A stretch of DNA of 64,000 nucleotides. Origin: an uncultured Lachnospiraceae bacterium (GTDB taxonomy: Bacteria; Bacillota; Clostridia; Lachnospirales; Lachnospiraceae). Positions 1,778 to 53,797 of this stretch are shown in pieces (positions within the stretch are counted from its first letter, which is position 1; each line of letters opens with the position of its first letter). Under the pieces are notes generated by a model that was not told where the DNA came from, made no database searches, and was given only the letters and a program-made list of their open reading frames with translations. The position numbers and the translations under genes are program-made. The stretch covers positions 62,001 to 126,000 of the forward strand of contig CANRLR010000006.1 of assembly GCA_947631505.1 (NCBI GenBank), given 5' to 3'.

Positions 1778-1891
1778 GTGAAAAATATGCTCGATAGCAT
1801 ATTTTTCACACCACTATTTGTGTCGAAGCACCACAAATAGTAATGATGCACAGGGCAAAAACAACAACGTTGATTTTTGCCCGTGCTTCGG
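1778..1891 (+). repeat. Structured multi-hairpin element, copy A (candidate ncRNA or mobile palindromic repeat)
   Basis: Three hairpins follow one another. P1 is 1778-1791 with 1796-1809 (14 bp, loop CGAT). P2 is 1813-1822 with 1832-1841 (10 bp, loop TCGAAGCAC). P3 is 1853-1861 with 1874-1882 (GGGCAAAAA/TTTTTGCCC). The P2 loop (CGAAGCAC) is complementary to GTGCTTCG at 1883-1890, so a pseudoknot enclosing P3 is possible. A second copy lies on the minus strand at 33260-33375 with compensatory changes in P1 and P2. It lies 3' of the lacI-type gene and ends 35 nt before the next start codon. It could act as a terminator-like structure, an ncRNA or a REP-like mobile repeat; the sequence does not decide. 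Confidence 0.8.
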
Positions 1892-30461: not shown

Positions 30462-30611
30462 ACCTGATTAGCAGTTTTTGCCAGAGAACAATTCACATTG
30501 AATTGCAGACCTGCAACGAGAATGAAAATGCAGCTTATTATTTACAATACTTCCTTCACAAATTAAAAGTAGTGTCACTTATAATACGATTCAGAAGAGG
30601 AAAATGTTGCA
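30462..30611 (-). pseudogene. Relic of a propeller-protein gene: signal-peptide stub fused to a duplicated 3' flank
   Basis: The right part (30462 to about 30545) is nearly identical to 31578 to about 31657, the signal-peptide end of the neighbouring gene; on the minus strand it still reads AGLQFNVNCSLAKTANQV. The part from about 30532 to 30611 matches 33360-33439, the region 3' of the 33459 gene, including one arm of the hairpin element (AGCTTATT.TTTACAA). The two parts meet at the shared word AGCTTATT. The simplest reading is an array copy whose body was deleted by recombination at that short homology. Confidence 0.7.
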
Positions 30612-30630: not shown

Positions 30631-31666
30631 TTATTTCAAAATCACTTTTGCCTTCCCATTCTTTGTCAACTTATAAATATGGCGGGGAAAATACCTGTGC
30701 AGATTATTATCTTTATCACAATTGTATCTTTTAAAGTTTTTTTATTTATTTTATGCAGTCTGCGCTTTTTATCTATATAATAAATATTCTTTTTATTGGA
30801 TGAAAAAGCAGTGTAATTTTTTTTGGAAACAGAAATAATTTTCCGCCTTTCAATGGAATGATATCCCCCTGATAATACATATAGTTTTTGTCAAAATTGA
30901 TGATAGTATCATCATAAGAGTTCTTTTTTCTCTTATATTTAACAATCAGGCTTTCTTTTCTGCTTTTAATATTAAACTTGTATATCTTAACCGTCTTCCC
31001 ATGAGTAATGCCATAATACATTGTATTATTCACCCTGGTAACAAAAACCTTATTTCTCGACATTTGTACTGTAAAGTTTACATGCTCACCAGAATAAAGC
31101 GATTTGCCATTTTTTGCCATAATCGCCCAATACATAGCCCGTTTGGCATCTGTTTGTATGCTCATGAACTTTTGATTCCATACATAAATCTCTGGACACC
31201 CATTTTTCCAGTATGATTCCCAATACACTCTTTTTACCGCAAAATCTGTTTTTAGTGTTTCAAATTTATTTTTTTCATCTTCCAATTTTACTATTTGAAG
31301 ACAACCGTCGTAGAAATAACCCAGGGCATAGTATCTGTTATCCATACGAATCATGTTGTAAATATCCGCCTCTTTATTTTTAAAAGTCTTGCACACTTTA
31401 CCATTTTTATAAATCTTATATATACCTTTTTTTTCTTTCCTTAAAAAATAGAAGTTTCCATCCGATGCAACGGCTCCTCTTGCAATATCATCATAACTGA
31501 AATTTGCATACTTCTTTTTCAGGTTTAAATTTAACTTTTTCATCGATGTTTTATTTCCGCAAACATCCGTTACTGTTACCTGATTAGCTGTTCTTGCCAG
31601 AGAACAGTTCACATTGAATTGCAGACCTGCAATGAGAATGAAAACGCAGCTTATTATTTTTTTCAA
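30631..31666 (-). pseudogene. Propeller-like secreted protein gene with two frameshifts (array member 3)
   Basis: The intact reading from a TTG start at 31666 (AGGAGAT ahead) runs 297 codons to 30773 with a signal peptide (MKKIISCVFILIAGLQFNVN) and blade-like repeats. Its end (GGKLFLFPKKITLLF) does not fit the paralogue at 33459, which has YIIPINGGKIVNKP, then YIFYLDTKYKLHRVDKKDL. Skipping one base in the A-run after GGK restores GGKIISVSKK, NIYYIDKKRRLHKINKKTL. One more skipped base restores a normal C-terminus, IYKLTKNGKAKVILK, stopping at 30631-30633. So two single-base deletions have broken the gene. Sequencing error is possible but two indels make decay likelier. Confidence 0.75.
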
Positions 31667-31740
31667 GATTATCTCCTACTATTATATTGTCATAGTCATT
31701 CTTTACCTTTTCATCAGGTTGGACTATGCTATTTTAAGAT

Positions 31741-31800
31741 ACTGTGGATTGGTTCATTCCTCCTACCACTTGATGGTTTAAACGAGGCTCCAACCACAGT
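31741..31800 (+). ncRNA. Candidate bridge-RNA stem-loop of the IS110 element
   Basis: ACTGTGG-A-TTGG (31741-31752) pairs with CCAACCACAGT (31790-31800), 11 pairs with one bulged A, closing a 37-nt internal loop that could hold target- and donor-guide segments. It lies in the leader 120 bp before the transposase start, where IS110-group elements encode their bridge RNA. The guide segments themselves were not identified. Confidence 0.5.
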
Positions 31801-31921
31801 CTCTTTGTTTATTTGTTAATCAGTTAGTTACCGCATGACGGTTTATCAAAAAGTAGGTTACAATCGCAAGGAGCCCTGTGAATCTTAAAACAGTATCAAT
31901 ACCATTTCAAGGAGGTCCTAT

Positions 31922-33097
31922 ATGATTTTTGTAGGAATCGATGTTGCTAAAGATAAGCACGATTGTTTTATCACAAACTCTGATGGAGAAGTGTTATATA
32001 AAGCCTTCACTATCGCAAATAATCTGGAAGGATTTATTAATCTTTATCAAAGGATAGAATCCGTTATGGAAGATGTTCACAAAGTAAAAGTAGGGCTAGA
32101 AGCCACTGGACACTATAGCTACAATCTTCTTGGATATCTCATTGATAAAGGTTTCCCGACCTACGTTATCAATCCGTTACATACCAATCTGTACAGAAAA
32201 AGTCTAAGCCTTAGACAGACCAAAACGGATAAAGTAGATGCCCGTACAATTGCTTCTATGCTTATGTCTGATGTGAACTTAAAGTCCTACTCAGACACAT
32301 CATATCACAACGAAGAGTTAAAATCACTAACTCGTTATCGTTTTGTTAAGGTAAAGGAACGTTCTGCTTTGAAAGTTTCTATATCTAGATTGGTTTGTAT
32401 TCTTTTCCCTGAATTAGAAAAGATGGTTCCCACTCTTCATATGGCGTCTGTTTATGCCTTGTTGTATGAATTCCCGAGTGCTAAACATATAGCTTCCGCA
32501 CATCTAACCAGACTTTCTAATCTTCTTGAAAAAGTCTCCAAAGGGCATTATCACAAAGAGACTGCCATTACATTCAGAGATGCGGCAAGAAACTCTGTTG
32601 GTTCCAATATGCCAGCAAAATCACTCGAACTCAAACATACTATTAAACTGATTCAGGAACTTGATTCTGAAATCGAAGAGATTGAAAGTCAAATCAACCG
32701 TATAATGGATGAAATCTCCTCCCCCATCCTAAGCATTCCCGGAATCAGTTATCGTATGGGCGCTATGATTATTGCTGAAATCGGTGATTTTAATAGGTTT
32801 GATTCTCCTGATAAAATCCTTGCCTATGCAGGTTTATCACCTTCCACATACCAATCTGGACAATTAGATAATCCTCATTCCCGTATGGAAAAACGTGGAT
32901 CGAGATATTTAAGATATGCTTTATTCAATGCCACCAAATATGTTTGTCATTGGGATCCAACATTCAATGCTTATCTCGCCAAAAAACGAGCCGAAGGCAA
33001 ACATTATAACGTTGCAATATCTCATGCTGCTAAAAAGCTGGTCAGAGTCATTTATCAACTCGAAAAAACCAGACAAGCCTATATAAAGTCTGTCTAA
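31922..33097 (+). CDS. IS110-family transposase
   Basis: The 391-aa recombinase has an N-terminal RuvC-like DEDD domain: FVGIDVAKDKHDCF (Asp), LEATGHYSYNLL (Glu), and RQTKTDKVDARTIA (two Asp). A helical coiled-coil segment follows (about 230-265), then the C-terminal Transposase_20 domain with ILSIPGISYRMGAMIIAEIG, the conserved Ser in AGLSPSTYQSGQ, and RGSRYLRYALF. The length is full and no frameshift is seen, so it may be active. AAGGAGG lies before the ATG. It acts on DNA together with a bridge RNA from the element's own end. Confidence 0.95.
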   Translation: MIFVGIDVAKDKHDCFITNSDGEVLYKAFTIANNLEGFINLYQRIESVMEDVHKVKVGLEATGHYSYNLLGYLIDKGFPTYVINPLHTNLYRKSLSLRQTKTDKVDARTIASMLMSDVNLKSYSDTSYHNEELKSLTRYRFVKVKERSALKVSISRLVCILFPELEKMVPTLHMASVYALLYEFPSAKHIASAHLTRLSNLLEKVSKGHYHKETAITFRDAARNSVGSNMPAKSLELKHTIKLIQELDSEIEEIESQINRIMDEISSPILSIPGISYRMGAMIIAEIGDFNRFDSPDKILAYAGLSPSTYQSGQLDNPHSRMEKRGSRYLRYALFNATKYVCHWDPTFNAYLAKKRAEGKHYNVAISHAAKKLVRVIYQLEKTRQAYIKSV

Positions 33098-33259
33098 TTA
33101 TTTCTAATACCATAATTCTTCTTTCGAGCACCATTAATGATGCTCTATTTGTCATGCAGTTTTCAAGGTTCTGATTGCAATGAAAAAGTCATTGCCACTT
33201 TATTTAAAAAACATTTCTGTTTTCAACTTTTACTTGACTTTTTTTAATAGTTAGTCTTT

Positions 33260-33375
33260 CCGAAGCACGGGCAAAAATCAACGTTGTTGTTTTTGCCCTG
33301 TGCATCATTGCTATTTGTGGTGCTTCGGCACAAATAGCCTTGTAAAAAATAAGCTATCGAGCTTATTTTTTACAA
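33260..33375 (-). repeat. Structured multi-hairpin element, copy B
   Basis: On the minus strand this copy has the same order as copy A (1778-1891): P1 33373-33360 with 33355-33342 (loop CGAT), P2 33338-33329 with 33319-33310, P3 33298-33290 with 33277-33269, and the P2 loop CCGAAGCAC complementary to GTGCTTCGG (33268-33260). P1 differs from copy A in paired positions that keep pairing, and the outer P2 pair changes from A-T to G-C. The stretch from the P2 3' arm to the end is otherwise virtually unchanged. It lies about 85 bp 3' of the lipoprotein gene at 33459, same strand. Confidence 0.8.
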
Positions 33376-34903: not shown

Positions 34904-37900
34904 TTATTTTCTCTTTTTAAGTCTAAGCTTTGGATTTAACTTTCGCGTCCGAAGGAAATAAGTAGTATCACTTAATGCATCTGTATACCTTTTATTTTTA
35001 TATTTAGATGATAATAAGACTTTACTCTCCCAATGACCAATATCCATCCCTTTTGCCTCTATAAATTCTCTATATGGATTATCCTTATAATTATCATGTT
35101 CCTGTTTTTTGTTTAGTTTTCTTTTATCTTTTGTTCCTTTATTTACCACAATTATCCCCCAATCTGCCACCCAATCATGGTGATATGCTTGAATTTTATT
35201 ACTTCGTTTTTTAAACGTCTTTTTGTTATCTTTAAAATCCGCCAAATCAGAAACATAACTATGAGCATAAAAATCCTGTATAGAATGCAGTGTCACTCCT
35301 AACATCAACATCTTCTTATCTTTATTAACAGAAATTTTTTTATACATTTCGCACGCATATTTAACTAGTTTTCTCGTCTTTTTTGCACTCTTTCCATGTA
35401 ATGCATCACTATCTTTCTTTATCTTATATTTTCCCAGTTTACTTTTTTTACCATGGCACACTTGATAAATGCTCGAAGAAACCGGTATTTTTAACTTAAG
35501 AACCTCTTTTAAAACCGTATTTCTCTTTTCCTTTGATTCACGGTAATCCGGTAATACCGAACCATAGAGTAAAACCTTATTATGATATGCTTTTATTCCC
35601 ATAAACAACGATTGATTGAATTCAAACGTTGCGGCAACATTTACCATACTTATCTTATTCATCGCCTCATTCGTCAGTGACATATGAACATAACTGTTAA
35701 GATTTGTACTTTCCTTATCATATTTAGTAAGGTCCCTTCCCCAGTGTCCGCTCGGATCGGTCATATTCACCGAATCATTATTACAATAAGTATACAGATT
35801 CAGACTAAGCGGGTCATCCTCTTCTCCCGTATAGCTGTCCGCGGTCAGGAATCTTCCCACTCCGGCGTCATAGTATCTTGCCCGCAGATAGAGCATATCC
35901 GTCTCCTTATCATAGTATTCCCCGCTATAACGGTATGGGTTGTCATCTTTCTTTTGCGGTTTCACTTCACTTCCGAACGCATCATATGTATACAGTTTCG
36001 TGACAGTTCCTTTTTCATTCAGCAGCTGTACCACATCCCCATGCGGATTGTATGCAAAGGTTACCGGTTCCGTTCCTTTTCCCGTGTCGGAATAAATCAG
36101 GTTATTTCCCCGGATATACCGTTTCTGTACCTTCCCATCCTTGTCTAATTCCATGACAATCTGGTCTCCGTCCCAAATAAAATAAGTAGCTTCTTTCTTA
36201 TTTTTCTTAACGGTCCGCAGCCCATCCGCATCATACTCATAGGTCATCTTATTCTTTCCGGCAAAGGAAGAAACCAGCTCATTTCTGGCATTATACTTGT
36301 TTACCACGTTTTCGTGCAGCTGGTTGTCACCAAGGCTGATATCCAGTGAGAAGGTCGTTCTATCCTCCCGCAAATCCAGTCTTTTTACCGTTGCCAGCTG
36401 GCTGCCGTTTTTATCATTTTTATAAAGCGTTACCGTATCTTTCTTTGTCTTGGTATTGACACGGTCTGTCCGGTACAGTTCATCGTTTTTGTTGTATTTG
36501 TAACCGGTTTTTGTGTTTTCGTACACTGCCTCTTTCCGATTGTTATGGGAATCATATGTGTAGGAAACATTTTTTATGGCTTTGTCTGTATGAGTTTCTT
36601 CCGTCAGCCTGCCGATCCGGTCATACATATAAGCATCGGTGTTTTTCTTTTGATTCTTTTCCTCATTCAAAACCTCGGAGGTCTCTTTTATTTTCTGCGA
36701 ATTGAAATTATAACTGCTCCGATAAGATGAAATCACAGAACCGTTTTCTGTTAATTGATTGGATAGACCGGTATTATCGCCTGCACAATTATATCCATAG
36801 GTTGTGGTAAGGGAAATTCCGGCTGCTGTCGACGACGCCAGTGCACCGTCTTCATTATAAGTATATTCTGCCGCCTCCTGATTATCTGCCTTTACCCTGT
36901 AGAGCCGGTCTGCTCCATCATATTCATAATTCATCGAGAGCTGTTCTGTACCATTCACTGACACATCAAAAGAAAGACAGTTATCCCCGCTGTCGTAAGT
37001 ATATTCTTTCTTCACCTTGGTATCTCCGGCCAATGAGGTCTCCTCTATCATAATATCCGATACGTTATCGTATGTAAATTCTTTCTCATCCTGCTTCGAA
37101 ATATTTCCAAAATCATCATATTCAAAGGTATGTGCTGTTTTCTTTCCCGTCTTCTTTGATATGGCTGTTTCCTTTACCGGACGGTTTTGATAATCATAAC
37201 GGTAGTTTATTATGTCGCCGTTCTTTTCTGTCTTTTTTACCATATTGCCATAGATGTCGTAGGCGTAGGTCTCCGTTCTGCCTTCCGGATCTGTCATAGA
37301 GATCAGCTGGTTTTTCTTATCATAAGCATATTTTGTCTCACTGACATGATCCTTTTTATTTTCTCCCGTTATCGTTATCTCATAGGTAACTCCCATATAA
37401 GTAAAAATATCAGACTGCTTGTCAGAAGATGGTTCTGTCACTTCTGTTACACGAAAAGTAAGCGGTGCTGTCATTCCCACAAACTGCCTTACCTTATTCC
37501 CCTCTTTATCATAAATATACTGGACATACTGGTTTTCTTTCTCCGTCACTGTGTTTGTCACCATAACAAGCTCGTTTTTGTCATTATACGTATACTCTGT
37601 TCTTGCGTTCTTATTTTCATCCAGCTGGACCTCTTCTGATATCAGATTATCGCTCGTGTCGTAACTGCCGGAGACACACTGGGTGTTTATTTTATCCCCT
37701 TCTTTTGTTATCGGATTCCACTGTTTTATCTGTCTCCCCTGAATATCATACTCATATCTGGTCGCATAACCTTCTTTGATTCCTCTTGGTGTGTAACTTT
37801 CCACCAGCTGTCCTTTGGTGTCATAAGTAGATTTCGTTGTCTGGCTGACCCATTCACCATTTGCGGAATTTCTGCTTTTTGTCGTCGTTTCCACCAGATT

Positions 37901-40900
37901 TCCCATGGTATCATAGGTGTACGAGACAATAGTTTCCTTGGTATTCAAATCCCTGCCATGGATTGTTTTCGTCTCACGGCAGCTATCTTTTGTTGCTTTT
38001 CCAAACTCATCATACTCATGATTGATTTTTGAAATCTTTTTATCCGCTCCACAAAGAATGGTTGTTTGTTCGGACTGCACGGTTCCATCTGTTCCGGTTA
38101 CTGTCGTTGTTTTTGTCTCTCTTATCTTTTTATCATCATTTCTCGTGTAATAATCCGCTGCATAGGCTTTTTTCACATAACCGGTCGGTTTCAGTTCCTT
38201 GATATCACTTTGAACGGTCACTGCCCCATTCTCATCGATTGTCTCTTCCTGCTTTTGAACCTGCCAGGAGGCACAATGGTCACAATCGATACTGCCGCCG
38301 CTAAATTCCGCGGTTTCCACTTCCACACCATAATCATCATACACATGACGGGAACCGGAAAGAATTTCATTTCCACGGCCCCCAATTTCATACTGAATGG
38401 ATACTTTGCCATCCTGATTCACCGTATATGCCTTTTCTTCTGGCTCAAAAACATAAGTCCGCTCCTCCACCAGCAGAGCCGTCGATTCACTCTGCCCGAT
38501 TTCATCCTCTGCCTCTTCCGCAGATTCCTCTTCGGTATATGCTTTTTCCAAATCGTCTACCTCACCGTCTTCCAGCTCCTCATCCATACTGTCTTCCCCC
38601 ATATCTTCTTCGTCCAAAATAAGGGTGTCATCTTCGCTGTCCGGTTCCCCATTCACTTCCCGATAGACATAATCATACTCGGTCCATGTACCGTTTGTTT
38701 CATCCTTTCGAATAATCGTATTCCCATAGGAATCCCTGATTTCAATAAGGCATCTGCCATACTCGTCTATCTCAGCAGACTTTAAACCATCCTCCGATGT
38801 ATAGGACTTGTCGGTTGTTTCCGATTCTGTACCGGCATTTTCTGTCACACTTTCTTCTTCGTTTTTCTCTTCATTATAAATTGTCTTTGTGACATTTCCT
38901 TTTTCATCGGTATAAGAAAGCTCATTCCCAAAGCTGTCATAAGTGATTTCTTCATTGGTATACGTTCGATTGCAGGAACTATCCTTCGCCGACTTGATTT
39001 CCACCACTTCTTTTATCATCTGACCGAGGGCATTGTAAGAAAAGTTGTTTTTTATAAAGGATTCCGGATCCGATATCAGGTCAGGAAATCTTTTTCCCAT
39101 CAGCTGATTTCCATTTCCATCATAGGTGTACTCTTCCCTTGTCATATCCGTATAACTGCTTCCCTGCTGGTTCACGGAGGTCACCGTGCTGCTTATATCA
39201 ATGCCATTGTCCGCCAGTTGGTTCGTCTGTTTCGATTTTGCACCAGATGACATATACCCCTCATATCCACTTACCGCAGCAAGTATCGCGGGACTATCTC
39301 CGGCAGGATAACCGGAAGATATATGAAAATAATTCACATGGGTCGTAAATTTCTCCTGCTGATTCTTATTCTTTTCCAAAAAGGCATTATTTAACTTTGA
39401 TTCTATGATATTCCGGTAAGAATCATATTGGTAACCTTCCTTGGATATACTGGCTTTTCCATTTCGGTTCCTGCCATATGTTTTTGTTGTATGATAAAGG
39501 ACAAGAGAGCCCTCTCCATTCTTATCATAGGTCAGAATGTTCTCACTTTTGCTATTGCCATCCGACACGGAGTTTTCCAACATTCCGTTTTTATTATAGA
39601 TATAGACCTCCGTACTCTTCTTTGGCCTGTTCTTTAACTGTAACGCAGCAGAGTCCAGCATGGACTTTTTGTACACATAATCGGATACCTTTTTATTATC
39701 CTTATGTTTTTGGGGGTTGTATCTTGTTTCTAACGTTACCGTATGAACCAGATCGGAACTGCCATATACCCGGAATTCCTCATTATCCACTTCGGATACA
39801 TCAATATGTCTGTCTGCCGCTTCCGCCCTTTTTTCGTCTTCCTCTTTTTCTTTAAAATCAGCATAGGAAACAAGACCGCTTTTCTGCTTCTGAAAGTAAT
39901 CATACTTAGTTCCGTTTGCTTTTTTCTTTGTTTTCGTATCCTGCTCATATTCGCGCGTGACGTACCACCGGATAGTCGCCACATCTCTTGTCATGCTGCC
40001 TTCTTTGCTCCCCCGTACAACACCGCCCCGGTATTCATAACAGCTCCTGCTTCGCCCTTCTGTGACAGACTTTAACAGGAACGTCCGGTTTGTAACCGCC
40101 CGCTGGGAAGCAATTCCGGCACCTGTACTGCTTGTTAAACTGTCGGCGATTCGATATTTGTAAATTTCCTTACTGCCATCTACTGTTACACCGGCCAGCT
40201 TTGCACCATGAACGGTGGAACCGCCTTTTGGTTTATACGATACTGCCTTAGTATCATATTGAACGGTTCTGGAAGATACACCACCGGAAACTTTCGTACC
40301 GTTTACCGTAACAGAAGAAAGCATCGGCACTCCATTGGCATCTGCTTCATAGTTAAATACAATCTCTCTTCCCACAGAGTCTGTAATTTTATTAAACCGC
40401 AGCCCATCACTTCGATAGGTGAACCGGATTGTATTTCCATGAGCATCTTTTTTTAACACAATCACCCCGTTCCGGTTAAAGTATGTCCGGTTTCCCAGCT
40501 TATCTCTCAGCAGATATGCCACCGCAATACCGTCTACTGTTTTCACATAGTTTTCCAGCTTTACATCTTTATATTGATATCCTTCCAGTCCTGTAATGAT
40601 GTACTGGCTTTTCGTAGTATCCTCTGATGCAGCAATTTTCCTTGTTCCGCTGCTGCCAAAATGCAGATACGTCGGCCGTTGTCCCTTGCTATTTCCTTTT
40701 ATGCTCTCCGTTTCTATCCATGGAAAATCATAGCTCCACCCCGCTGCAATATAATAAGGTGACACAGAAATCTTATCCGCTATGATTGTTGTTTCTGTAT
40801 TCCGTGATGTTTCATTGCTTCTTGCAACGGATTTCTTTTTATATTTCCGAAAGGTTCCCTTCAGTGCTGATTTGTAGGACTTAAAAATATCCTTGTCCAC

Positions 40901-41299
40901 AATGACAGATTTTGTTTCTTTCTTATCATTCCGAAAGCTCACCCAATACGTGTTAATATCCAGTACCTCTTTTTCAGCCGCCTTTACCAGTCCGATTCCG
41001 GCATTACTGCTGTCGTAATAACGGGATAATTCAAAATCCAGACCGGCATTTCCCTGCAGGGATAAATCATTCCGTGTAATCACCAGTCTTCCCAGTCTTG
41101 TGTCTACTCCATCCTCCCCCAGCTCTTCTAACGGAGAGCCATATAAAAACGGCATTGTAATACCTTGATAAACATTCGCGTAGCTTTCTGTCAACTCGGA
41201 ATCATACTCCACATTTACTGCCTTGACCGAAATAAAATTTAACGAACACAGGGCAATGGTTCCCAAGATAGCAATTCCACATTTTTTCAATAGATTCAT
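34904..41299 (-). CDS. Secreted RHS/YD-repeat polymorphic toxin with phospholipase-C-like C-terminus
   Basis: The 2131-aa protein has a Sec signal peptide (residues 1-28) and about 1,500 residues of YD repeats (e.g. YDKKNQLISMTDPEGRTETY). An unusually acidic linker (38490-38650, EDMGEDSMDEELEDGEVDD) interrupts them. The RHS core end YLRARYYDAGVGRFLTADSY leads to DPSGHW (about 1848-1853). The 280-residue tail resembles zinc-dependent phospholipase C: His1872 in YVHMS, Asp1918 in LYGSVLPDYRE (compare GSTYPDYD in alpha-toxin), His2005/Asp2009/His2013 in LHSIQDFYAHS and His2040-2041 in AYHHDW. The shell would carry and release the tail. It follows the DNRLRE/Kelch gene by 17 bp. The enzyme call is by motif only. 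Confidence 0.85.
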   Translation of the reverse strand: MNLLKKCGIAILGTIALCSLNFISVKAVNVEYDSELTESYANVYQGITMPFLYGSPLEELGEDGVDTRLGRLVITRNDLSLQGNAGLDFELSRYYDSSNAGIGLVKAAEKEVLDINTYWVSFRNDKKETKSVIVDKDIFKSYKSALKGTFRKYKKKSVARSNETSRNTETTIIADKISVSPYYIAAGWSYDFPWIETESIKGNSKGQRPTYLHFGSSGTRKIAASEDTTKSQYIITGLEGYQYKDVKLENYVKTVDGIAVAYLLRDKLGNRTYFNRNGVIVLKKDAHGNTIRFTYRSDGLRFNKITDSVGREIVFNYEADANGVPMLSSVTVNGTKVSGGVSSRTVQYDTKAVSYKPKGGSTVHGAKLAGVTVDGSKEIYKYRIADSLTSSTGAGIASQRAVTNRTFLLKSVTEGRSRSCYEYRGGVVRGSKEGSMTRDVATIRWYVTREYEQDTKTKKKANGTKYDYFQKQKSGLVSYADFKEKEEDEKRAEAADRHIDVSEVDNEEFRVYGSSDLVHTVTLETRYNPQKHKDNKKVSDYVYKKSMLDSAALQLKNRPKKSTEVYIYNKNGMLENSVSDGNSKSENILTYDKNGEGSLVLYHTTKTYGRNRNGKASISKEGYQYDSYRNIIESKLNNAFLEKNKNQQEKFTTHVNYFHISSGYPAGDSPAILAAVSGYEGYMSSGAKSKQTNQLADNGIDISSTVTSVNQQGSSYTDMTREEYTYDGNGNQLMGKRFPDLISDPESFIKNNFSYNALGQMIKEVVEIKSAKDSSCNRTYTNEEITYDSFGNELSYTDEKGNVTKTIYNEEKNEEESVTENAGTESETTDKSYTSEDGLKSAEIDEYGRCLIEIRDSYGNTIIRKDETNGTWTEYDYVYREVNGEPDSEDDTLILDEEDMGEDSMDEELEDGEVDDLEKAYTEEESAEEAEDEIGQSESTALLVEERTYVFEPEEKAYTVNQDGKVSIQYEIGGRGNEILSGSRHVYDDYGVEVETAEFSGGSIDCDHCASWQVQKQEETIDENGAVTVQSDIKELKPTGYVKKAYAADYYTRNDDKKIRETKTTTVTGTDGTVQSEQTTILCGADKKISKINHEYDEFGKATKDSCRETKTIHGRDLNTKETIVSYTYDTMGNLVETTTKSRNSANGEWVSQTTKSTYDTKGQLVESYTPRGIKEGYATRYEYDIQGRQIKQWNPITKEGDKINTQCVSGSYDTSDNLISEEVQLDENKNARTEYTYNDKNELVMVTNTVTEKENQYVQYIYDKEGNKVRQFVGMTAPLTFRVTEVTEPSSDKQSDIFTYMGVTYEITITGENKKDHVSETKYAYDKKNQLISMTDPEGRTETYAYDIYGNMVKKTEKNGDIINYRYDYQNRPVKETAISKKTGKKTAHTFEYDDFGNISKQDEKEFTYDNVSDIMIEETSLAGDTKVKKEYTYDSGDNCLSFDVSVNGTEQLSMNYEYDGADRLYRVKADNQEAAEYTYNEDGALASSTAAGISLTTTYGYNCAGDNTGLSNQLTENGSVISSYRSSYNFNSQKIKETSEVLNEEKNQKKNTDAYMYDRIGRLTEETHTDKAIKNVSYTYDSHNNRKEAVYENTKTGYKYNKNDELYRTDRVNTKTKKDTVTLYKNDKNGSQLATVKRLDLREDRTTFSLDISLGDNQLHENVVNKYNARNELVSSFAGKNKMTYEYDADGLRTVKKNKKEATYFIWDGDQIVMELDKDGKVQKRYIRGNNLIYSDTGKGTEPVTFAYNPHGDVVQLLNEKGTVTKLYTYDAFGSEVKPQKKDDNPYRYSGEYYDKETDMLYLRARYYDAGVGRFLTADSYTGEEDDPLSLNLYTYCNNDSVNMTDPSGHWGRDLTKYDKESTNLNSYVHMSLTNEAMNKISMVNVAATFEFNQSLFMGIKAYHNKVLLYGSVLPDYRESKEKRNTVLKEVLKLKIPVSSSIYQVCHGKKSKLGKYKIKKDSDALHGKSAKKTRKLVKYACEMYKKISVNKDKKMLMLGVTLHSIQDFYAHSYVSDLADFKDNKKTFKKRSNKIQAYHHDWVADWGIIVVNKGTKDKRKLNKKQEHDNYKDNPYREFIEAKGMDIGHWESKVLLSSKYKNKRYTDALSDTTYFLRTRKLNPKLRLKKRK

Positions 41300-48769: not shown

Positions 48770-50398
48770 CTATTTAATTTCTGTATTGACGGGAGCAGGA
48801 ACCTCGGTTGGTAAATTGTAAAAAATACCAAAATCATACTTTATCACCCGATAAGCATATCTTTTTGATTTGTAAGTAAACTTACGAATCATTTTTCCTT
48901 CACTGTCATACTCACCATACGTATGATTCATACCGCTGTTGAATGTTATATTTCCATAATAATGCTGAACTCCGCTTACCACACTGGAATACGGTACGGA
49001 AAATTTCTTGACGAGTTTATACGTTTTTTTCTTTTCATCCACAAGATACTTATAATAATACGACGCTTTTCCTTTGCGATAGCTTCCGACACCCTTGTAT
49101 TTTTTCCAATTAAATTTAGGGAGCGTTTTTGCACTTCCAAAATTATTATTATACAGATAAAGGTAATACTGTCCTGACGGCAGGGTACTGTCCTTTTCAA
49201 CCGTAATCGTATGCTGTCCGGCATGTCCCACGAAGTTTTTACCGACCCGTTTCAACAAGTATTTTTTAAATTTTGTTTTGTTATAAAGGGTTCCACTATG
49301 AATAATATAATCAATTTTCGGCTTGGAATAAATATTTTTCACTTTTATCAGAGAGCTTTCCTCCCTGCTGCTTACAATCAACTCTCCGTCATTTACCAAA
49401 TCCAGAGAATTCAAATGCAGCCAGTCGAGTTCCGTACCACCATATGTATTTTTACCGCTCTTTCTCTGAACATGCTTCTTTCGCATAGATGACATCAAGG
49501 AGGAGAAATCAACTAATTTTTTTACCTTTTTCGTGTTCAGATCCACCGAAATCACAACATCTTCAATCGTATTCTTTTTTTTGTCATTCACAAGACATAA
49601 CAGCTTTTTGTGTGATTCATCATACATAAAATCGTGATGTAATTGGTAGCCCTTCAGCGTAATCTTTTTTACTACCCGCCCCAAACGGTTCATAATCGCA
49701 ATCTTATTTAGGTCATAAGAAAAAATCCATTTGCCGTCAACTGTAAGGATCCGGTCCGTGCGATATCCATTTAACGGTGTCCGTCCACGATTTACCCCTT
49801 TATTATCATAATAATAAATGTTGGTCGCTTTCGATTTATCGTGTCCGAACATGGCATAAATACCCTCACTGACTGCTGCCTTGCTTTTTCCCTTTTTTAC
49901 CTTCGTAATTTTTGGAATCACCTTGTCCTTTTTCATTGTTATGGAATATTTCATCTCTTTTTTAAGGACCTGATTTTCATCATAAAATTGTAACCGTATC
50001 GTATTTTTTTTGCCTGCCACCAAACCGGTAATCAGATACTCATGCTCTGTCGTCAGCTGATTCTTTCCATTATTGACTAACCGATGGGAGATTGTCTCAG
50101 CACCGCTTGCTGTTATCGTACAATTTACATAATAAGGTTCTTCGGAAATCCCATAAAAATAAATCGAAGTGCTCATTGTTCCAAATGGATTTTTTACAAG
50201 TAACGGATTCGTAATGGTTCTTTTTGTCTTTTTCCATTTGTTTATCTGATTCAATGCCTGTTTCTGGTATTTCTGCGTATAAACATTTTTATAAGAATGC
50301 TTCACTGTCTTTACTGCTGCATGTGAATTTATTGTATAAAAAAGAGAACCTCCAAGCAATAAACCGAATACAATAATCAAAATTTTCTTATTTTTCAC
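48770..50398 (-). CDS. Arylsulfate sulfotransferase, PAPS-independent (copy 1 of 3)
   Basis: The start at GTG 50398 (GGAGGT five bases ahead) gives 542 aa; an ATG at 50410 would overlap that site. It has a signal anchor (about 4-27), a beta-sandwich N-terminal domain (about 30-160) and a beta-propeller with the ASST active-site set: LHHDFMYD (His255), DWLHLNS (His328), SSREESS (Arg345) and GHAGQHTITV (His396, the likely sulfurylated histidine by analogy with E. coli AssT). It would move sulfate from one phenol to another outside the cell. It differs from the other copies in its high Lys content. Third gene of the operon. Confidence 0.88.
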   Translation of the reverse strand: MKNKKILIIVFGLLLGGSLFYTINSHAAVKTVKHSYKNVYTQKYQKQALNQINKWKKTKRTITNPLLVKNPFGTMSTSIYFYGISEEPYYVNCTITASGAETISHRLVNNGKNQLTTEHEYLITGLVAGKKNTIRLQFYDENQVLKKEMKYSITMKKDKVIPKITKVKKGKSKAAVSEGIYAMFGHDKSKATNIYYYDNKGVNRGRTPLNGYRTDRILTVDGKWIFSYDLNKIAIMNRLGRVVKKITLKGYQLHHDFMYDESHKKLLCLVNDKKKNTIEDVVISVDLNTKKVKKLVDFSSLMSSMRKKHVQRKSGKNTYGGTELDWLHLNSLDLVNDGELIVSSREESSLIKVKNIYSKPKIDYIIHSGTLYNKTKFKKYLLKRVGKNFVGHAGQHTITVEKDSTLPSGQYYLYLYNNNFGSAKTLPKFNWKKYKGVGSYRKGKASYYYKYLVDEKKKTYKLVKKFSVPYSSVVSGVQHYYGNITFNSGMNHTYGEYDSEGKMIRKFTYKSKRYAYRVIKYDFGIFYNLPTEVPAPVNTEIK

Positions 50399-50439
50399 AC
50401 TGACCTCCATTCCATAGCGTTTAAGCAAAGGAAGTTCCT

Positions 50440-52086
50440 TTATCCAACATAAAATATATCCTCAAAATTATACTTAATGACACGATAGGCATATCGTTCT
50501 GCTTGGTAAGTATAGGTACAGATCATGTTTCCATCCTTGTCATACTCGCCATAGGTGTGGTCCATACCACTACTGAACGTTATATTATCACCAAAGTAAT
50601 TTACCCCGCTTACGACACTGGAGTACGGAACCTCAAACTGCTGGACCATTTTATACGTTCTCTTATTTTCATCCACTAAAAATTTTGTAAAATAAGATGC
50701 TGTTCCTTCCCGGTAAGTTCCCACTCCTGGATATAAACTCCAGTCAAAATCAGGAAGTGTTTTTGCACTGCCGAAATTGTTGTCATAGAAAAACAAATAA
50801 TACTGATTCTCTTTTAAATTCTTATCGTGTTCCACCGTTACCGTATGCTGTCCGGCCGGTCCGACAATTTTTCCTTTTGATTTTAAAAGCAGCTTTTCAT
50901 ACTTAGTTCCTTCATACAAAGAACCCTTATGAATCAAATAATCAATGGAAGGATTCTCATAAATATCATTGATTTTGATCAGAACACTCTCTTCTCTGCT
51001 GCTGAAAACAGCATCCTTATCATTTAACATGTCGAAAGAATTCAGATGGAGCCAGTCAAGCTCTGTTCCTCCATATGTGTTCTTTCCCCCCTTACGCTGG
51101 ACAGAACAATCTCTCATGTCCTGTAACAGCACTTCAAAATCAACTAAATGTGTAACCTCTCCAGTCTCTAAACTAACAGAAACCAGCACATCTTCAATCG
51201 TATCCTTATCACCGTCATTCACAAGACAAAGAATTAACTTTTTCTTTGCATCATACATAAAATCATGATGCAGCTTATATTTACCTAAATTTACTTTCTT
51301 TATTACCTTCCCCAAACGGTTTACTACCGCAATATCCGAAAGACTATAGGAATACACCATATTTCCATCAATCGTTAAAATACGGTCTGTCCGGTACTTA
51401 TTCAATGGTGTTTTTCCCCGGCTCACCCCGTCATTGTCAAAATAATATATATTTTTTGCTTTGGATTTATCATGTCCCAAAATGGCAAACAATCCGTCTG
51501 TCAGTGCCGCTTTACTCTCACCCTTCTCCACCTTGGTAATCGCCGGTATTTCTTTATCCGTATTTAATCTGACCGTATAGCTCTTTTCCTGAAGCAGCCG
51601 GTCCGAACCATCATAAAAGGATAGTTTGATCTGATTCGACTGTCCTGCTGCCAAGCCGGTTATCAAATATTCCTGTTCTTTTGTCAGACCATTTTCGCTA
51701 TCATTTTTCAGACGGTTTTTTAGGACACTGCCGCGCTCCGGTGTAATTTCGCAAATCACATAGCTGTCTGACTCTGTTCTGGCATAATAATAAAATCCCC
51801 CTGTATTTGTCCCATATGGATTCCAAATTAACAACGGACTTTCCACAGAATATACATTTTCCTGTTTCCATTCTGCAATCTGCCTGTCTGCTTCTGCCTG
51901 ATATTCATCGGAATAAATGTTTTTCGTTTCATGTACAACCTCTTCGACTGTACAATCGGACTCCAAAATACCAGCTGTCTGCTGCTCCTTCGCTGTTCTA
52001 TGCGATTTTTTCCATTGAACTGCTCCGAATACAGCAGCTCCAGCTAATATAATTGTTACAATACTCAGGATTACTTTCTTTTTCAT
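50440..52086 (-). CDS. Arylsulfate sulfotransferase, PAPS-independent (copy 2 of 3)
   Basis: The start at ATG 52086 (GGAGA ahead) gives 548 aa. N-terminal anchor (about 4-22), then domain order as in copy 1: N-terminal sandwich with the NPYGTNTGGFYYYARTESDS segment, then the propeller with LHHDFMYD, ELDWLHLNSFD, FSSREESVLI and GPAGQHTVTVE. All four catalytic positions are kept. YPGVGTYREGTASYFTKFLV and SSVVSGVNYFGDN near the end are shared with the other copies. It starts 16 bp after copy 3 and ends 41 bp before copy 1. Divergence is well beyond recent duplication, which suggests distinct acceptors or donors. Confidence 0.88.
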   Translation of the reverse strand: MKKKVILSIVTIILAGAAVFGAVQWKKSHRTAKEQQTAGILESDCTVEEVVHETKNIYSDEYQAEADRQIAEWKQENVYSVESPLLIWNPYGTNTGGFYYYARTESDSYVICEITPERGSVLKNRLKNDSENGLTKEQEYLITGLAAGQSNQIKLSFYDGSDRLLQEKSYTVRLNTDKEIPAITKVEKGESKAALTDGLFAILGHDKSKAKNIYYFDNDGVSRGKTPLNKYRTDRILTIDGNMVYSYSLSDIAVVNRLGKVIKKVNLGKYKLHHDFMYDAKKKLILCLVNDGDKDTIEDVLVSVSLETGEVTHLVDFEVLLQDMRDCSVQRKGGKNTYGGTELDWLHLNSFDMLNDKDAVFSSREESVLIKINDIYENPSIDYLIHKGSLYEGTKYEKLLLKSKGKIVGPAGQHTVTVEHDKNLKENQYYLFFYDNNFGSAKTLPDFDWSLYPGVGTYREGTASYFTKFLVDENKRTYKMVQQFEVPYSSVVSGVNYFGDNITFSSGMDHTYGEYDKDGNMICTYTYQAERYAYRVIKYNFEDIFYVG

Positions 52087-52102
52087 CGGTTTTCTCCAGC
52101 CA

Positions 52103-53797
52103 TTATCGATAATAAAATTGATTGAAATCATACTTCAAAATACGATAAGAATATTTATCTGCATCATAGTAGAAAGTACGGATCATGTTTCCTGCCTTAT
52201 CATATTCTCCAAAACATTTGCTCATACCACTGCTGAAAGCAATATTTTCACCGATATGCTCAACACTACTGACAATGCTTGAATAAGGCAGTGCAAAATC
52301 ACTTACTAATTCATAGGTTCCCTTTTCCTCATCTACTAAATATTTATAATAACATGAATGGTCTCCTTTCGCAAATGCACCCACGCCAGGATACAGACTC
52401 CAATCAAACGATGGAATTGTTGCTGCATTACCAAAATTATTATTGAACATATATAAATAATATTGATTCTCCGGCAGTGCGGCGTCTTTCTCCACTGTAA
52501 TCGTATGCTGTCCTGCCTGCCCTACAAAATCACCCTTTTTCTCAAGCTGATATTGTTCATATTTTGTCCCCTTATACAGGGAACCGGCATGGATAATATA
52601 ATCAATTTCCGGTGTCTGATAAAGATTCGATACTTTAATCAGGGAACTGTGTTCGCGGCTGCTTAAAATCACTTCTCCATCCTCAATCATATCCAAAGAA
52701 TTAAAATGAATCCAATCCAGCTCTGTTCCACCATAGGTATTCTTACCATCTTTTCTCTGAATGGCACTCTTACGAAATTCCGGCATAAGCTTTTCAAAAT
52801 CTATTAATTCCTTTACTTCTCCGGTCTTACAATCAAGTCCCAGCACACGGTCTTCAATTGTGTCAGCACCCTTTTTATTCGCTAAAATCACAATGGTATC
52901 TTGTCTTTCATCATATATAAAATCATGGTGAAATTCGTAATCACCAATATCTATGGTCTTTTCCACTCTTCCTAAACGATTTACAAAAGCAATTTTATTG
53001 ATATCATAGGAATACACCATTTCATCACCGATAAACAGAATACGGTCTGTCCGGTAATGGTTCAAAGGAATACGTCCTCTCGCCTTTCCCTCATTATCAA
53101 AGAAATACACATTGGTCGCTGTCGATTTGTCATGTCCAAGCAAGGTATAAAATCCATCACTCATTGCTGCTCTGCTGTCTCCGTTCTTAACCTCCAGCAC
53201 TTCAGGAATCTGATTGTCTGCAGCCGGTTTATAGGAAAAACTGGTTTTATGAATGACTTCATTTTGTTCATTATAAAATTCCATAAAAATGTCATTTCTT
53301 TTTCCCGGCACCAAACCAATAATATTATATTCATGTTCCGTTACAAGTGCTTTCTTATCCACTGTCTGTAACGTATTCTCAATTGTGACCGCATCCTCTG
53401 ACACAATTTTACATTTTGCATAAGATGGTGTGTCTGTTCTTGCATAATAATAAAGTGCCGTCGTAAATGTACCATATGCATTTTCTACAAGCAATGGTTT
53501 AGAAAACGAATATTCTTTTTTATTTTTTAATTTTAAAATCTGTTCATCCGTTTCCAATTGATATTTGTCTGTGTAAATATCTTTTTCCTGATGAGAAATT
53601 TTCTGTACATCGGCACGAATTTCCTGACAGACAACTTCTGTCTTCTTCTCGGTTCTGACATCCTTATTGACCTCTTCCCGAACATCATTTGCCCACACCT
53701 TGTGATAAATACTAAGTGATGTAGCAATTACTGCCATTAAAAATACTGCTGTCAGTGCAGCAATTTTCATTGTTTTTTTTCCTTCGTTCCGTCCCAT
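52103..53797 (-). CDS. Arylsulfate sulfotransferase, PAPS-independent (copy 3 of 3, first in operon)
   Basis: The start at ATG 53797 (GGAGGT six bases ahead) gives 564 aa; upstream in-frame codons lack a site. A signal anchor (about 12-30) is followed by a charged linker, the N-terminal sandwich with NAYGTFTTALYYYARTDTPS, and the propeller with FHHDFIYDE, ELDWIHFNSLD, LSSREHSSLIKV and GQAGQHTITVE. The catalytic His/His/Arg/His set is complete. In gut Eubacterium A-44 a comparable enzyme transfers sulfate between phenols without PAPS; that is known biology, its use here is inferred. It leads the four-gene unit that ends in the deacetylase. Confidence 0.88.
   Translation of the reverse strand: MGRNEGKKTMKIAALTAVFLMAVIATSLSIYHKVWANDVREEVNKDVRTEKKTEVVCQEIRADVQKISHQEKDIYTDKYQLETDEQILKLKNKKEYSFSKPLLVENAYGTFTTALYYYARTDTPSYAKCKIVSEDAVTIENTLQTVDKKALVTEHEYNIIGLVPGKRNDIFMEFYNEQNEVIHKTSFSYKPAADNQIPEVLEVKNGDSRAAMSDGFYTLLGHDKSTATNVYFFDNEGKARGRIPLNHYRTDRILFIGDEMVYSYDINKIAFVNRLGRVEKTIDIGDYEFHHDFIYDERQDTIVILANKKGADTIEDRVLGLDCKTGEVKELIDFEKLMPEFRKSAIQRKDGKNTYGGTELDWIHFNSLDMIEDGEVILSSREHSSLIKVSNLYQTPEIDYIIHAGSLYKGTKYEQYQLEKKGDFVGQAGQHTITVEKDAALPENQYYLYMFNNNFGNAATIPSFDWSLYPGVGAFAKGDHSCYYKYLVDEEKGTYELVSDFALPYSSIVSSVEHIGENIAFSSGMSKCFGEYDKAGNMIRTFYYDADKYSYRILKYDFNQFYYR

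Follow-up and report, generated by a model that had tools for sequence, protein, structure and literature searches.

REP and BIME sequences are palindromic, extragenic and present in many copies, the REPs being 20-40 bp long. Here we describe an element from Lachnospiraceae, typically 125-135 nt in length, which is likewise palindromic, extragenic and numerous. In comparison with the REP/RAYT system, the REPs are shorter, and no Y1 transposase was matched in four genomes with high copy numbers of the element, possibly as a result of gene loss or assembly gaps.

The bcr1-bcr18 repeats of the Bacillus cereus group are many-copy intergenic repeats, of which about half are transcribed, often within UTRs or operons; bcr1-bcr3 were likened to MITEs, and bcr10 and bcr18 have conserved structures and are transcribed in 5' UTRs (PMC3446304). 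The element shares with them the many intergenic copies but occurs in other hosts, and in the part of that paper used for this comparison by description the bcr repeats neither target the interval between Shine-Dalgarno (SD) sequence and start codon nor carry an SD of their own (PMC3446304). The BOX, RUP and SPRITE repeats of pneumococcus are short, mobile, extensively structured and co-transcribed with genes, and BOX elements can supply the start codons of new ORFs (PMC3049150). According to the portion of this source considered here, BOX and RUP have terminal inverted repeats that pair with each other (PMC3049150), whereas the element begins with a hairpin, ends with a pseudoknot strand and is inserted at translation start sites. 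ERIC, YPAL, NEMIS and other MITEs are non-coding sequences of 70-300 bp that influence adjoining genes via folding of the transcript, and bacterial MITEs are described in the same excerpt as having terminal inverted repeats of 15-30 bp (PMC3733652). The element is non-coding, falls within 70-300 bp and occurs in many copies; terminal inverted repeats were not seen, as its ends GTGTGAAAAAT and CGCTCCGGAATGGAG are, by inspection of alignment A5 (see below), not inverted copies of each other.

The element resembles MITE-like repeats such as bcr1, BOX and ERIC but with an unusual targeting: insertion between SD and start codon together with an element-borne SD is absent from the bcr, BOX and ERIC descriptions in the parts of the three sources that were compared. 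Among the papers listed by our searches of the open-licence PMC literature, none was seen to describe the family. The sequence-only reading, in which two copies in our window (the whole stretch of 64,000 nucleotides analysed) were taken for a two-copy RNA-like element, knew of no described family with this order of parts, and Rfam 15 agreed with it, giving 0 matches above threshold in the window and, around copy 1, a best sub-threshold match of 22.5 bits against a cut-off of 64. We consider it probable that the copies belong to a non-autonomous mobile element, which inserts between a gene's SD and its start codon and brings a replacement SD.

Two copies in the window

The following features of the window are referred to in the text.

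1776-1891, + strand: element copy 1, without the 15-nt linker of full copies (covariance-model match of 130.6 bits, E 4.3e-30; alignment A1)
1778-1809, + strand: P1 hairpin of copy 1, arms 1778-1791 and 1796-1809, loop CGAT (fold; covariation)
1813-1841, + strand: P2 hairpin of copy 1, arms 1813-1822 and 1832-1841, loop 1823-1831 (fold; covariation)
1824-1831, + strand: pseudoknot strand in the P2 loop of copy 1, CGAAGCAC (covaries, across 86 other copies, with the 3' strand)
1848-1886, + strand: P3 hairpin of copy 1 (fold; covariation)
1883-1890, + strand: pseudoknot 3' strand of copy 1, GTGCTTCG, overlapping the P3 base (covariation; comparison with full copies)
1926-2183, + strand: gene of a TSCPD-domain protein (TIGR03905 / PF12637), preceded by copy 1 (profile matches)
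30532-30611, - strand: paralogous gene start without the element (repeats D7/D9; printed sequence)
30773-31666, - strand: gene with a TTG start, likely the former target of copy 2 (judged from the paralogous flanks D7/D9)
31922-33097, + strand: ORF of an IS110-family transposase between copy 2 and its likely gene (NF033542, 219 bits; PF01548, PF02371)
33257-33375, - strand: element copy 2, P1 at 33342-33375, with the same 15-nt deletion (covariance-model match of 117.8 bits, E 8.2e-27)

The copies had been placed at 1778-1891 and 33260-33375, and both locations were confirmed in the window sequence. Together they form an inverted pair, 92% complementary over a span of 119 nt. The fold of copy 1 had a z of -8.2 and that of copy 2 a z of -9.3, and in either case 0 of 200 dinucleotide shuffles were equally good. 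The hairpins P1, P2 and P3 and the pseudoknot, proposed from these two copies, were found in both, with covariation in the 86 other copies. The paired differences between copy 1 and copy 2 were also present, two in P1 and one in the outer P2 pair (A-T to G-C). The difference T-G to C-G between loop and 3' strand exists as well, but it alters a single side and is not a paired change.

The window copies measure 117 nt, compared with 132 nt in the copies L031-L033; the missing 15 nt, between P3 and the pseudoknot strand, were lost by a collapse between two GTGCTTC repeats. Because of this loss, the 3' pseudoknot strand and the P3 base share some nucleotides in the window copies, and the fold that these copies display is a collapsed one. 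In full copies the 3' pseudoknot strand is separate from the P3 base. At copy 1 the SD at the 3' end is decayed. Both window copies belong to a large family, of which they are worn representatives.

Both copies had been described as lying 3' of a gene; it turned out that the informative neighbour is the gene on the 3' side of the element and not its 5' neighbour. At copy 1 the start of this gene lies 32 nt on, an exception to the usual spacing. Copy 2, which is also an exception, was probably once located 5' of the gene at 30773-31666, for which the Pfam search gave no family, and is now separated from it by the IS110 insertion. The insertion (window 31660-33250) directly adjoins the 3' end of copy 2. 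A reconstruction by eye would place its target at the GGAA/GGAG border of the element, so that the insertion parted the element from its gene.

The gene start at 30532-30611 is seemingly broken (TTG TAA). An early reading of this place as a pre-insertion site was replaced by that of a possible deletion scar, in which AATAAGCT in P1 perhaps recombined with AATAAGCT in the gene. Elsewhere in the window, a unit of approx. 1.6 kb is present in three tandem copies at 48829-53482 (stretches 60-80% alike; repeats D1-D3 and D6), and an ORF of 2131 aa, whose repeats we take to be RHS/YD-like, occupies 34904-41299 on the minus strand.

Size, structure and coding capacity of the family

With copy 1 as query, BLAST matched the own genome 22 times, in part through reverse-strand matches to the palindromes. 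Matches were obtained in 25 of 61 sampled genomes, all of the same genus, and none in the 24 genomes of other families. A two-copy RNA gene was ruled out by these matches across the own genome and the genus. A covariance-model search of the own genome and of other Lachnospiraceae, which had been suggested as a check, revealed many further copies. The model was built from 33 oriented copies (alignment A1). Run on the own genome, it matched 30 places at E<=0.01, and 19 of these were strong copies with E<=3.3e-10. At E<=0.001 it matched 33 of the 39 genus genomes, the own included, and the highest count in one genome was 48 (G022 and G023, 48 each; G014, 41; G032, 40; G002, 27; G000, 24; G028, 22; G015, 18; G061, 15). 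Across the family, 42 of 299 sampled genomes, or 41 of 298 genera, were matched at E<=1e-5, with at most 10 candidates scored per genome.

In named genome records the P2-hairpin pattern was detected in at least 118 stretches. Among the 80 matches listed were Lachnospiraceae and records named only Clostridia, Eubacteriales and the like, with genera including Acetatifactor, Eisenbergiella, Lachnospira, Roseburia and Eubacterium; one of those listed (L175) was labelled Gastranaerophilales, possibly owing to a binning error. Two unannotated faecal phage records matched partially, over 49% and 46% of the query. The plasmid search returned no element match, and IMG/VR none by the P2 pattern. From the loci searched with the models 247 matches were collected, many being the same place twice. 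After dropping 22 matches whose 3' end was missed by the pattern, several of them with a start codon at the usual place, 208 distinct copies were left, 191 with enough flank.

Several copies depart from the common form. Three in the own genome (L057, L058 and L059) are without P1, with ATTCACGTTGG directly before P2 and other genes downstream; as they persist, P1 is dispensable for the persistence of a copy. Four others (L146, L152, L154 and L141) have an apparent extra small hairpin between P1 and P2. At L127 (4557-4804) a tandem pair of elements precedes one gene, at L142 another element's 3' end forms the left flank, and at L126 a P1-like remnant follows the element.

In alignment A1 (33 copies), 96.3% of 1229 cells pair and changes in both partners are seen at 18 of 38 pairs, with a covariation score of 0.312 compared to at most 0.101 in slid versions; the number of further pair types was a weaker signal, with 12 of 500 shuffles as high. 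In alignment A5 (86 non-redundant copies), 94.4% of 3607 cells pair, 29 of 43 pairs change on both sides and the score reached 0.337, versus at most 0.089 in slid versions. A5 comprises 86 of 117 non-redundant copies; the 31 removed by hand include copies that are longer, shorter or degenerate, the two of the window and some of ordinary form, and the A5 figures therefore apply to the better-preserved part of the family. Taken alone, the pseudoknot in A5 pairs in 96.8% of 688 cells, with a score of 0.329 versus at most 0.118 in slid versions and both-side changes in 69 cells versus 21 in shuffles. Its pairs with double changes (4) were not above the shuffles (293 of 500 as high), and neither were its pair types (121 of 500). 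P1 extends outward by 2 covarying bp, which are paired in 105 and 101 of 114 readable copies. Two inner P1 pairs (A5 columns 15-25 and 16-24) are paired in less than half of the copies, a consequence of the variable P1 loop region. The letters TTTG of the P2 arm are invariant in A5.

The paired changes exceed the controls in A1 and A5, which bears out the earlier claim that the folded form is selected. Chance palindromes were ruled out by the shuffle z-scores and by the covariation in both alignments. It had also been considered that the element might be only a mobile palindromic repeat. The mobile part of this statement stands; the "only" does not, given the real paired changes, the three helices with a pseudoknot and the regular position at genes.

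A reading frame from the start triplet in P1 was followed in the 117 non-redundant copies. It stops within the element in 60 copies, ends near or after the SD in a different frame in 22 and continues in frame into the gene in 12; 12 copies are without a start codon and 11 without an ATG at the right. No conserved peptide was found among the 117 copies and a uORF was rejected as a conserved feature. The element has no conserved coding capacity.

Position at gene starts, junctions and orthologous loci

The picture of an RNA gene lying 3' of genes was replaced by that of a family whose dispersed members are inserted where genes start. Of the 191 copies with enough flank, 170 had a start codon of an ORF of at least 60 codons no more than 25 nt from the 3' end (1176 of 5000 random places in comparison), and in 158 the distance was 10-13 nt. 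A sharper count used 186 of them: in 164, the same-strand start codon of such an ORF was located 8-14 nt 3' of the element end, compared with 4 on the mirror side, 29 at a displacement of +60 nt and 4 at 68-75 nt upstream; an ORF start at this distance was lacking in the other 22. Downstream genes include NAD synthase, trpS, atpD, tsf, ffh, yebC and an etfA-like gene, whose best NCBIfam match is an acryloyl-CoA reductase electron-transfer subunit. These names were assigned from N-terminal pieces, with tsf alone reaching the full-length cut-off; ruvA, downstream of one copy, was identified by sequence recognition only.

An SD-like 4-mer was found in the 5' flank of 138 of 159 copies (control, 26 of 159), usually followed by TAGT and then P1, and this SD faces a start-like GTG, ATG or TTG in 136 of 146 copies. 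The form of the right-hand SD (AATGGAG or AATGAGG) was tied to the element type (113:7 versus 10:31, p 6e-18; 38 of 199 copies, which fit neither form, were excluded), which may itself partly follow the genome. For the left-hand SD no link to the element type was seen (p 0.29), at a power limited by 63 usable copies of 199 and the exclusion of 132. It is thus supported, not proved, by these sequence forms that the left SD is that of the target gene and the right SD largely the element's own, the duplication proper being short or variable.

The left and right junctions were alike to a degree that 0 of 1000 shuffles attained (146 copies, tandem ones included). For a stricter count, 126 of 159 copies had TA at the expected right-hand place, and 7 tandem copies were set aside, leaving 119; at least one of these, L104, also has a tandem-like left flank. 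At least 10 of 11 positions were identical in 24 of the 119 copies versus 6.5 expected, with 11/11 in 14 (1.6 expected) and 10/11 in 10 (4.9 expected). The likeness was clearest just before the TA and again at position -9. Since TA on the right was a selection criterion, the TA itself is no evidence. The likeness is clear in only about one fifth of the copies and its length is not fixed. An SD duplication of a fixed 12 nt as a general rule was rejected, since much of the right-hand SD is seemingly element-borne and only a short or variable duplication is supported.

Orthologous loci were compared among the best 30 matches per gene within the genus, where most genomes are fragmented. For the etfA-like gene the element was present at 2 and absent from 16 of 18 readable loci (start not recognised in 11, too little upstream sequence in 1). 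For tsf it was present at 2 and absent from 7 of 9 (21 not recognised), and for atpD present at 1 and absent from 22 of 23 (6 not recognised, 1 with too little upstream sequence). All 30 yebC loci were readable, 1 with and 29 without the element. At ruvA 1 locus was filled and 23 were empty among 24 readable ones (6 not recognised), the filled one being identified by the covariance-model match, not by the start-pattern script. L283 and L341 were left uncounted for short upstream sequence, and L351, counted among the 22 empty atpD loci, may hold a remnant. At the etfA-like gene, four relatives (L280, L284, L285 and L287) contain CAAGAATGGAGGGTAAAATG once; the own genome contains GAATGGAGGGTA, then the element, then GAATGGAGGGTAAAATG. 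Another species (G014) has a different element copy at the same place. At the atpD start of G015 (L353), CACTTCGGAATGGAGG precedes the gene and no element is present; this is possibly the 3' end of an element, kept as SD after its loss.

Proposed mechanism and alternatives

The element forms a family with a common structure, position and orientation, and orthologues occur with and without it. For the mobile element that we favour, we propose the following scheme. The transcript would fold into P1, P2 and P3, and its 3' terminal strand would pair with the P2 loop. An enzyme acting in trans would move the element by recognising this folded form, as RNA or as single-stranded DNA, and insertion would occur in one orientation, after the SD of the target gene and before its start codon. 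The old SD would stay in front of P1, and the 3' end of the element (..CGCTCCGGAATGGAG..) would provide a new SD shortly before the native start codon, from which translation would then proceed, so that the gene is probably still translatable. The fold may be recognised by the mobiliser or may serve to keep the new 5' UTR compact, and a compact fold is predicted to keep the new SD usable. In a pseudoknot-free partition function the new SD was on average 35% unpaired (60 copies), and good translation is therefore not assured. Bringing its own SD may explain why the element is present even at housekeeping genes.

A cis-regulatory leader RNA, riboswitch-like or bound by a protein, could instead control a regulon at translation initiation, by switching between two forms, one with P2 and the pseudoknot and one in which the SD and the 3' strand are paired to the loop and 5' arm of P2. 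The covariation could also stem from such a conserved leader, and the two readings are not mutually exclusive. The location, mostly immediately 5' of the start codon and beside the SD, the occurrence in many genera and the invariant TTTG of the P2 arm also suit a leader, and RNAalifold on A1 preferred the SD-pairing alternative to P2. However, the alternative helix averaged -16.4 kcal/mol against -16.2 for the pseudoknot alone, a negligible gain, and P2 (-11.2) would be lost (60 copies). The downstream genes that were named are unrelated (NAD synthase, TrpS, AtpD, EF-Ts, Ffh, YebC) and show no association to a single pathway or orthologue, and at the five genes compared the orthologues were mostly without the element. 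We regard a leader as unlikely.

A selfish RNA family in the manner of a bacterial SINE, for which the translation-initiation region itself would be the landing site, with a folded RNA and its SD being copied into the SDs of other genes, seems to us rather improbable. The particular route of a retro-element, in which short SD homology would direct reverse transcription of the folded RNA, its SD included, into the SD of another gene, is highly improbable. It would agree with the mRNA-sense orientation, the folding of both RNA ends, the SD apparently carried at the 3' junction and the varying length of the junction likeness. RVT_1 was present in 17 of the 39 genus genomes, including the high-copy G002, G014, G022 and G032, but was not matched in the own genome, where the element has 24 matches, or in G023, G015, G028 and G061.

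Very little weight is attached to movement as single-stranded DNA by a Y1 (HUH) transposase, as in elements of the REP/IS200-IS605 kind. Hairpins with compensatory changes would be suited to recognition of folded DNA, an SD as strand-specific target would account for the fixed orientation, and a partial Y1 match was found in the high-copy G014. Yet the Y1 transposase was matched in only 10 of the 39 genus genomes, and G000, G022, G023 and G032 were all without a match. Elements of this kind make no target duplication, whereas junction likeness was seen in a subset of the copies. That the IS110 beside copy 2 mobilises the element via a guide RNA is disfavoured as barely credible: its ORF lies 160 nt from copy 2, but a later insertion accounts for this adjacency, the proteins printed beside other copies are by eye unlike IS110, and IS110 was above the cut-off in only 20 of the 39 genus genomes, with none in G023, G002 and G032.

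Neither the Y1 transposase nor the reverse transcriptase nor IS110 matches the distribution of the element in the 39 genus genomes. All three were absent above the cut-off from G023, with 48 element matches, and all three present in G014, with 41. These routes are thereby made only less likely, given the incompleteness of many genomes and the possible loss of a mobiliser once the element has spread. A scan of the fetched loci for a longer, autonomous copy largely re-detected the palindromes, and no longer version was noticed.

If the SINE-like reading were true, the RNA would be tolerable by replacing the ribosome-binding site that it displaces, and would leave altered SDs behind upon loss. 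For the mobile element in general, the question is raised which enzyme moves to start codons an element that is folded but has no inverted ends. That it can occupy the interval between SD and start codon in genes such as tsf, atpD, ffh and trpS hints at a way for a parasite to be tolerated at a gene's most sensitive place, namely by supplying a ribosome-binding site of its own, and Lachnospiraceae would thereby have a source of re-wired translation starts.
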